Shown here piece by piece: positions 20,105 through 22,846 of a stretch of DNA of 64,000 bases. Source of the stretch: Fimbriimonadaceae bacterium (GTDB taxonomy: Bacteria; Armatimonadota; Fimbriimonadia; Fimbriimonadales; Fimbriimonadaceae); NCBI GenBank assembly GCA_026129685.1, contig JAHCHO010000001.1, positions 124,001 through 188,000 of the forward strand, read 5' to 3'. The stretch's first letter is position 1. Each line of letters begins with the position of its first letter. The notes beneath the pieces are model-generated. The model saw only the letters and a list, made by a program, of their open reading frames with translations, did not search any database and was not told the DNA's origin. The position numbers and the translations under genes are program-made.

Positions 20105-20593
20105 ATGAGGCCGACGATTGGCGTCGTTCCCTTGCGGGATCCGGCCCGGGCATGGGCCAACGACCTGTTGGCGCACCGATGGGGCGGGCCGCGGATCGAA
20201 CGGTTGGGAGAGCTGATCGACGCCTCCACCCTACCGGCCTTTGTGGCGTTGCTGGAGGACGAGCGCGTGGGGCTCGTCACCTATCAGATACGGCCGGACG
20301 AACTGGAGGTCGTGACCTTGGACAGCCTGGTGCCGGGATGCGGGATCGGGTCGGCGTTGTTGCACGCGGTCGAGGGGGTGGCCCGGTCGTCGGGTTCGCG
20401 GCGGGTGTTCCTCTACACGACGAACGACAACCTGCCCGCCATGCGGTTCTACCAGCGACGGGGCTACCGGTTCGTCCGGGTGTTCCACGACGCGATGACG
20501 AAGGCACGGGAACTCAAGGCCTCGATCCCGGCGATCGGCCTGCAGGGCATTCCGTTGCTCGACGAGATCGAGTTCGCCAAGTCGCTCGACTAG
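20105..20593 (+). CDS. GNAT family N-acetyltransferase
   Basis: A 162-residue acetyltransferase fold. The acetyl-CoA pyrophosphate loop is GCGIGSALL (consensus Q/RxxGxG/A), preceded by VVTLDSLVP on beta 4. NLPAMRFYQRRGYRFVRVF is the typical alpha 4-beta 7 segment. It should acetylate a small molecule or protein N-terminus in the cytosol; the target is not predictable. Its stop codon shares the palindrome CTAG (20590-20593) with the stop of convergent selD, so the two mRNAs overlap at their 3' ends. Confidence 0.92.
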   Translation: MRPTIGVVPLRDPARAWANDLLAHRWGGPRIERLGELIDASTLPAFVALLEDERVGLVTYQIRPDELEVVTLDSLVPGCGIGSALLHAVEGVARSSGSRRVFLYTTNDNLPAMRFYQRRGYRFVRVFHDAMTKARELKASIPAIGLQGIPLLDEIEFAKSLD

Positions 20594-21603
20594 CCGTTCG
20601 GCCCGGTCGTTCCGGACCGCACGACGATCCCCGGTTCCCCGGACACCACCCGGCCGATCCGCACCGAGCCTTCGATCGGGGTTGCCGAGAACAAGGCCAG
20701 CCCTCCGCTCGTCTGCGGGTCGAGCACCACGTCGCGCAACCACGGGGGCACGTCGTCGTCGAAGGCGAGGGCCTCGCCGAGGAACTCCTCGTTGCGCCCG
20801 GCGCCGCCGGTCATCATGCCCTCCGCGACCATGCGTTCGACTCCAGGCAAGACGGGGAGGCGACCCGCTTCCACCTCGATGCGGACTTTGGAGGCTCGCG
20901 CCACGTTGAACAGGTGGCCGGCCAGTCCGAAGCCGGTGATATCGGTGGCGCACCGAACGCCCGCTTCGAGGCCCTGGTCGGCCGCTTCGCGGTTGAGGGC
21001 GGACATCGCGGCGATCGCCGCCGACAGTTCGTCCTCGGAGCAGCGATCGAACTTGGCGGCGGTGGTGACGATGCCCGTCCCAAGCGGTTTGCTCAGGTAC
21101 ACCCCGTCGCCCGGTTGTGCGTTCGTGTTGGCGAACATCCGGGACGGGTTCACGATGCCGGTGACGCTCAGACCGAATTTCGGCTCGTTGTCCTCGACGC
21201 TGTGCCCGCCGACGACGACGGCGCCGGCCTCGGTGACCTTGTCGTAGCCTCCCCGCAGGACCGCGGCCCAGACTTCGGGGGGAGCGGCCGCCGGGTTGAA
21301 GCAGGCGATGTTCATCACGGTCAGGGGCCGGCCCCCCATGGCGTAGACGTCGCTCAGGGCGTTGGCGGCGGCGATCGCGCCGTAGGCGTAGGGGTCGTCC
21401 ACGATGGGGGTGAAGAAGTCCATCGTTTGAACCAGGGCTTCGGTTTCGTTCAGGCGAAAAACCCCGGCGTCGTCTCTGGTCTCAAAGCCGACGAGCAGGT
21501 TCGGATTGGCCGAACGGGGTATGGCGCGGAGAACCTCCGCAAGCTGGGTGGGTCCCAGTTTGCCGGCTCAACCCGCGCAGTGAACGAGGTGCGTCAGTCG
21601 CAT
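20590..21603 (-). CDS. selD: selenide, water dikinase; selenoprotein with in-frame UGA (Sec12)
   Basis: SelD makes selenophosphate from selenide and ATP. Conventional reading begins at MDFFTPIVDD (21423) and lacks the catalytic N-terminus. Reading upstream in the same frame across a UGA at 21568-21570 restores it: ATG at 21603, then HLVHCAG-U-AGKLGPTQLA, LLVGFETRDDAGVF, and TMDFFTPIVDD. Family motif is AGC/UxxK, so the UGA sits exactly at the catalytic Cys/Sec position and K15 is the essential lysine. Full length is 337 residues, normal for SelD. DVYAMGG and the DITGFGLAGH segment are also intact. A hairpin follows the UGA and a -10 box precedes the ATG by 7 nt. Implies that the cell has SelA, SelB and tRNA-Sec elsewhere. 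Confidence 0.93.
21526..21558 (-). promoter_or_regulatory. candidate bacterial SECIS element in selD
   Basis: Starting 27 nt after the UGA, the minus strand has a perfect 6-bp stem GCGGAG / CTCCGC with the loop GTT (21526-21540). The loop begins with G about 33 nt after the UGA, which fits the bacterial SECIS distance rule. A second small stem CTGGG / CCCAG (21544-21558) lies between it and the UGA and could stack below it. Confidence 0.65.
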
Positions 21604-21610
21604 CGGGAAG

Positions 21611-21616
21611 AGTGTA
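21611..21616 (-). promoter_or_regulatory. -10 box of selD, leaderless
   Basis: On the minus strand TACACT ends 7 nt before the ATG at 21603. This independently supports the extended selD start upstream of the UGA rather than the internal Met at 21423. Confidence 0.5.
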
Positions 21617-21662
21617 CCGGCGGGTCGGGGCGGGGGCCGGTGGGCAGCCCGTCCCGGCGGAT

Positions 21663-21717
21663 CCCGTCATTCCCGTCATTCCCTTGTGTCCCCCTTCCCG
21701 TCATTCCCGTCATTCCC
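21663..21717. repeat. CCCGTCATT short tandem repeat
   Basis: Two adjacent pairs of the 9-bp unit CCCGTCATT (21663-21680 and 21697-21714) are separated by 16 bp. The array lies at the 3' end of the AAA ATPase gene and supplies its stop codon (GAATGA on the minus strand). Its complement, GAATGACGGG, resembles GAATGACAGGG in the repeats on the other side of that gene. Confidence 0.85.
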
Positions 21718-22846
21718 AACTCCTCGTGCGCGCCCCTCGCACGCCCGGCCCCAAGGCCACGGTCACGGCCGGTTCAGGCCGGTCCAGTTCGCGCGTTCCC
21801 GATCCGTCCCGATCGGCAGGGAGGCGGTAGTGCGCGCAGCCGTTCCGGACGGCATGGCAGAGAACCCGTTCCTCCCGGTACAAGCGGGTGAGGCCGTTGC
21901 GGACGGTGCCGACGCGTGCGCCGATTCGGTCGGCGATCTCCTGGGCGGTGAGGGGACCCGAACGTCGGAGGCAGTCCACGATCTGGGCGGCGACGGTGTT
22001 TGGCCAGGTCGGCTGGGGCCGGCCGGGATCGAGACGGTGCACGCGTTCTTCAAGGTCCACCTGGTAGTCCAAGGGGCCAGTGCTGAAGAGGCGGACGCAC
22101 TGGTTGCCGTCGGGCCGACGGCTCCGGCAGTCGAGGGTGACCAAGCGTCCGGACTCGCGCCCGGACTCGTTCGCGAGGGTCGCGGGTTGGGCGGCCATCA
22201 CGATTCCCGTGGTGCAGACGGCCTCCAGTTGGGCGCTGCCCGCGATGCGGCCTCGTTGCCCGGCGCGAGCGCGGGACTGCTTGTGGTGAAGGACGAGGGT
22301 GGTGGCGGCGCGCGAAACCTCGCGGAGGTTCTGCATCACGCGCCGGGCGGCGGCGGGGCGTTCCAGGTTGCAGTTGGCGGCGGCCTGGAGGGGGTCCAGG
22401 ACGACGAGGCGGGCCTCGGTTTCGGCGATCCAGGTCGTGATCGCGCCGACGAACCGATCGTCGTCGATGGGGATGCGTTCGAAGCAGGAATAGAGGGGGA
22501 GGTGAGCCTGAGCGAGGGGCGAGGACCACAGGAGCCGGCATCGTTCGGCGAAGTCCTCTTCGTAGCATAGCCAGAGGACGGCGCCTTGGACGGTGGGCAT
22601 CCCGGCGAAGGGGGTTCCGGTGGCGACGGCAAGGGCGATGGCGCTGGCGAGGCAGGTTTTGCCCTCTTTGGGGTTCGCGCCGATCAGGACGAGTTCGCGG
22701 GTTTCGAGGAGGCCTTGGACCACCCACTCGCGGGAGGCGATGCAGGGGAGTTGGTCGAGGGGCAGGAAGAGGCGACCGACATAGGCCTGCCAGCGCTCGA
22801 CCCGCTCGTCGAGGGTCTCGCGTTCGTCGGGCGATTGTTGACGCAT
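21710..22846 (-). CDS. RecA-fold AAA ATPase (RepA-like) with C-terminal winged helix
   Basis: A 378-residue P-loop protein. Walker A is GANPKEGKT (about residue 76), Walker B is ARLVVLDPL (about 150), and LVLHHKQSRA resembles the sensor strand of the AAA_25/RepA hexameric helicase group. Residues 295-350 look like a winged helix-turn-helix (GPLTAQEIADRIGARVGTV). Proteins of this type come from plasmids, phages and integrated elements, where they unwind origins. The start at 22846 is chosen because AAAGGA precedes it on the minus strand; a TTG 33 nt upstream is possible. Short repeats lie on both sides, and no integrase or transposase is adjacent. It may be a relic of an integrated element. 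Confidence 0.8.
   Translation of the reverse strand: MRQQSPDERETLDERVERWQAYVGRLFLPLDQLPCIASREWVVQGLLETRELVLIGANPKEGKTCLASAIALAVATGTPFAGMPTVQGAVLWLCYEEDFAERCRLLWSSPLAQAHLPLYSCFERIPIDDDRFVGAITTWIAETEARLVVLDPLQAAANCNLERPAAARRVMQNLREVSRAATTLVLHHKQSRARAGQRGRIAGSAQLEAVCTTGIVMAAQPATLANESGRESGRLVTLDCRSRRPDGNQCVRLFSTGPLDYQVDLEERVHRLDPGRPQPTWPNTVAAQIVDCLRRSGPLTAQEIADRIGARVGTVRNGLTRLYREERVLCHAVRNGCAHYRLPADRDGSGTRELDRPEPAVTVALGPGVRGARTRSWE

Follow-up and report, generated by a model that had tools for sequence, protein, structure and literature searches.

Does the reading frame on the minus strand between positions 21603 and 20590 of a 64,000-nucleotide stretch of a Fimbriimonadaceae genome (hereafter the window) encode a selenophosphate synthetase that is itself a selenoprotein, or is it a gene broken near its start? 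The frame comprises 337 codons and is interrupted by a single TGA, at codon 12 (21568-21570), before it terminates with TAG. The first-pass annotation read it as selD with selenocysteine (Sec) at the catalytic position, and we have followed up this reading through homologue alignment, RNA structure analysis and searches of the source genome and its relatives.

The selD gene and its in-frame UGA

The protein is SelD, selenide water dikinase, with a predicted activity as selenophosphate synthetase. It scores 362.4 bits against TIGR00476 (cut-off 125), covering model positions 1-303 of 311, and aligns to E. coli SelD (PDB 3u0o) with an E value of 2.7e-68. When TGA is translated as U, the N-terminus reads MRLTHLVHCAG-U-AGKLGPTQLAEVLR, and U12 and K15 of this N-terminal loop fall on Cys17 and Lys20 of 3u0o. 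The TGA therefore occupies the place of the catalytic cysteine, and the codon at 21559-21561 specifies the conserved active-site lysine (Lys15), which reading through the UGA had been expected to restore. Without recoding, the next ATG lies at 21423, where automated annotation had been predicted to begin the gene, and yields a product of 277 residues; ordinary annotation of selD would thus cut off the N-terminus and lose the active site.

That 277-residue frame is also what would be expected if the TGA were a sequencing error or a nonsense mutation, leaving either a pseudogene or a shortened protein made from 21423. A product from 21423 would have neither the catalytic residue nor Lys15, and the frame upstream is preserved in relatives together with the TGA. 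Among 127 SelD N-termini read from Armatimonadota, the same column carries TGA in 108 (near-duplicates included; 103 are distinct over the 57 nucleotides used for the tests below) and Cys in 19, with no other residue present, so that the UGA aligns with the Cys of homologues and cannot be there by chance. Since the UGA is kept in approximately 100 other genomes, an error at this position, which the first-pass annotation had named as a possible refutation, is excluded in practice, and we give a damaged or shortened gene practically no credence. A SelD match was found in 143 of 291 genomes of the phylum. The UGA, almost certainly read as Sec, is thus a trait found across the phylum Armatimonadota; assignment to this phylum rests on the nearest named relatives, e.g., Uphvl-Ar1, which agree with the earlier guess.

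A -10-like box, TACACT, is present on the minus strand at 21611-21616, 7 nucleotides before the selD ATG and at the place previously noted. In most family members, a similar TAnnnT box precedes the start codon by approximately 6 to 9 nucleotides, and this position suggests that the selD mRNA is leaderless. Immediately upstream of the gene, at 21660-21720, are the short repeats GGGAATGAC and GAATGACGGG. At its other end, selD overlaps by 4 bases (20590-20593) with a convergent plus-strand frame (20105-20593), which by eye looks like a GNAT acetyltransferase.

An RNA hairpin downstream of the UGA

The hairpin GCGGAG-GUU-CUCCGC (21526-21540, minus strand) has a stem of 6 base pairs that begins 27 nucleotides after the UGA, where the first-pass annotation had placed it, and a GUU loop with G first, 33 nucleotides after the UGA; its folding energy is -8.2 kcal/mol. 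These values satisfy the published model for bacterial SECIS elements (bSECIS; PMC13188914), which specifies a loop of 3 to 9 nucleotides with a G in the first two loop positions, 16 to 37 nucleotides from the UGA, and an energy of -7.5 kcal/mol or lower. The model is likewise satisfied by 93 of the 108 UGA-type selD genes, compared with 3 of the 19 Cys-type genes. When the window's gene is recoded synonymously, with its own codon usage as weights, all six pairs survive in only 1.8% of cases. Taken as a whole, the 57 nucleotides after its UGA show no excess stability over synonymous recodings (z = +0.07), and a competing hairpin is present directly upstream of the stem. The argument for a SECIS in the window's gene therefore draws on this particular stem and on the related genes, and not on the stability of the whole region.

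Counted over the phylum's UGA genes, the six stem pairs give 618 cells, of which 513 are Watson-Crick. When synonymous codons are permuted within columns, the expectation is 432.6 ± 6.5, and 513 was reached in none of 2,000 permutations, a statistic which, like the folding scores below, ignores the phylogeny of these related sequences. At one stem position, 46 sequences have C-G and 41 have G-C, the switch being made through coordinated changes in a Glu or Gln codon and a Leu codon; this covariation backs the original SECIS proposal. In the Cys-type genes, only 49 of 114 pairs are Watson-Crick, compared with a mean of 40.2 in permutations of these genes; this excess may be remnant structure. 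The folding energy of the 57 nucleotides after the codon, relative to synonymous recodings, has a mean z of -1.65 in the UGA genes and -0.03 in the Cys genes (ten loci in this set, nine of the Cys type, come from other phyla), while z ranges from -0.07 to -0.68 in windows placed further downstream in the UGA genes. These comparisons of aligned genes show the hairpin to be under selection where the codon is UGA.

The selenocysteine machinery and its probable clients

An open frame alone does not give the identity of the inserted residue, and UGA could conceivably have been reassigned in this lineage to another amino acid, such as Trp or Gly. TGA is, however, the terminator of 14 of the 34 long non-overlapping ORFs in a mechanical list for the window. 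In addition, the source genome (3.94 Mb, 99% complete) contains selA (contig C13, position 125663; 484 bits), selB (C15, 173607; 353 bits) and a tRNA-Sec (C12, 276525; 76 bits) to which ARAGORN assigns the anticodon TCA, which argues against reassignment. Absence of these genes had been put forward as the other possible refutation. Inside the window itself, Rfam gave no match and ARAGORN no tRNA. Given also that relatives replace the UGA by Cys only, and that the constraint on the hairpin tracks UGA and not Cys, reassignment has next to no chance of being correct. By contrast, it is very nearly certain, from the sequence evidence combined, that selD is a genuine selenoprotein gene with Sec inserted at codon 12, because the family match, the column with UGA and Cys only, the sel machinery, the stem pairing and the other UGA/Cys redox proteins of the lineage all favour this reading.

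The distribution of selB follows that of SelD. Of 41 genomes examined, 29 have a full SelD match, and 27 of these also have selB over the cut-off; the other 12 genomes all lack a selB match of this strength. The remaining two genomes with SelD-UGA, G022 and G036, are assemblies with a completeness of 92% and 88%. Three genomes (G003, G007 and G028) have a Cys-type SelD and yet retain selB, implying that they have other selenoproteins; they form a natural experiment on how the Sec trait is maintained.

Could SelD be the sole selenoprotein, so that the Sec system only makes its own supplier? A single-selenoprotein role for SelD has been reported for some species that contain YbbB (PMC1794560), and neither the FdhA matches in 25 genomes nor the PF00578 and PF02627 domain matches of the source genome have an in-frame TGA. 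The first of these results speaks against FdhA as the main client. YbbB, however, is over the TIGR03167 cut-off in 0 of the 41 genomes, which also disfavours a selenouridine trait. The retention of selB in the three relatives with Cys-SelD, in-frame UGA redox proteins in relatives, and a second UGA gene in the source genome itself speak against a self-serving system as well, making it very unlikely overall.

This second gene lies outside the window (C16, 147443-148003; locus L147, 1244-1807, and L156) and encodes an AhpC/TSA-type redoxin, P0002. It ends with GGNTFG-TGA-GGC-TTC-TAG, i.e., FG-U-GF-stop, with the UGA three codons before the stop and a bSECIS-type hairpin located around and past the stop codon, while its paralogues end in or contain SGCSF. 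The protein has an N-terminal hydrophobic stretch and an invariant cysteine (Cys66 of P0002), and the ending G-U-x-[FYIL]-stop recurs in relatives from many Armatimonadota genera. A hairpin of 6 to 10 base pairs with G in the first two loop positions is present in all 16 UGA members tested, 19 to 23 nucleotides after the UGA and mostly past the stop codon (shuffle p 0.003 to 0.043). No comparable hairpin is present in any of 13 Cys paralogues, three of which have weak ones of -0.4 to -3.5 kcal/mol. The phylum search yielded further members that fit this pattern; the hairpin of one is weaker, at -6.1 kcal/mol. Searches with NCBIfam returned only generic thioredoxin and peroxiredoxin families, all below their cut-offs.

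Based on these features, P0002 is a probable selenoprotein. There is a good chance that the Armatimonadota Sec system has among its clients an undescribed family of AhpC/TSA-type redoxins with a C-terminal G-Sec-x-[FYIL]-stop and a bSECIS located at and beyond the stop codon instead of within the coding sequence. Such a family is easily overlooked, since annotation drops three residues only. At four redoxin loci (L166, L169, L171 and L305), the real stop appears to be another UGA, located four codons further on, so that within 12 nucleotides the same codon would have both meanings, Sec and stop.

Sampling of the selenoproteome covered FdhA, PF00578, PF02627 and proteins related to the redoxin. 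When TGA read-through frames in the sel gene neighbourhoods were compared all against all, the result was mostly other-frame noise, with only SelD prominent among the matches listed. Redox proteins with an in-frame UGA were also seen in relatives: in G028, one TlpA-like protein contains UGPC and a further protein contains a CU motif (L136 and L137), and G012 (L138), G014 (L139) and G020 (L140) contribute AhpD-like CHYU proteins and one with UVFC.

Comparison with known selenoprotein systems

The complete gene, its UGA at the catalytic column, the conserved RNA structure and the Sec machinery are read directly from the DNA, and by analogy with the established pathway we infer SelB-dependent insertion and the selenophosphate reaction. 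SelB carrying Sec-tRNA-Sec would bind the hairpin 3' of the selD UGA, and Sec would then be inserted at codon 12, the catalytic position. The resulting SelD would make selenophosphate, which SelA would use to charge tRNA-Sec, so that SelD would depend on its own product.

Sec-containing SelD is a well-known selenoprotein (PMC1794560, PMC13188914). The window's gene shares with known examples the N-terminal catalytic Sec, the conserved Lys, the in-frame bSECIS and the genomic selA, selB and selC, and differs in lineage only; its UGA-to-loop spacing of 33 nucleotides falls close to the upper limit of the published range. E. coli SelD (3u0o) belongs to the same fold family and agrees in catalytic position and in Lys20, but carries Cys17 where the window's SelD has Sec, and has no UGA. 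We found no mention of Armatimonadota among reported Sec users, or with Sec-SelD, in the literature surveyed, which is part of what is published. Our data establish Sec use across a poorly studied phylum, and Sec-SelD leads in turn to a family of candidate selenoproteins whose Sec is C-terminal. That redoxin is more novel than Sec-SelD, and it is not obviously present in the portion available to us of the table of a 2026 review. The UXX-star selenoprotein families NF041114 and NF041211, named in PMC13188914, are absent from the redoxin matches up to E = 1 for P0002 and 0.01 for the 16 members. Judged by their names, these families resemble the redoxin in having Sec near the C-terminus, whereas the redoxin is of the AhpC/TSA type.
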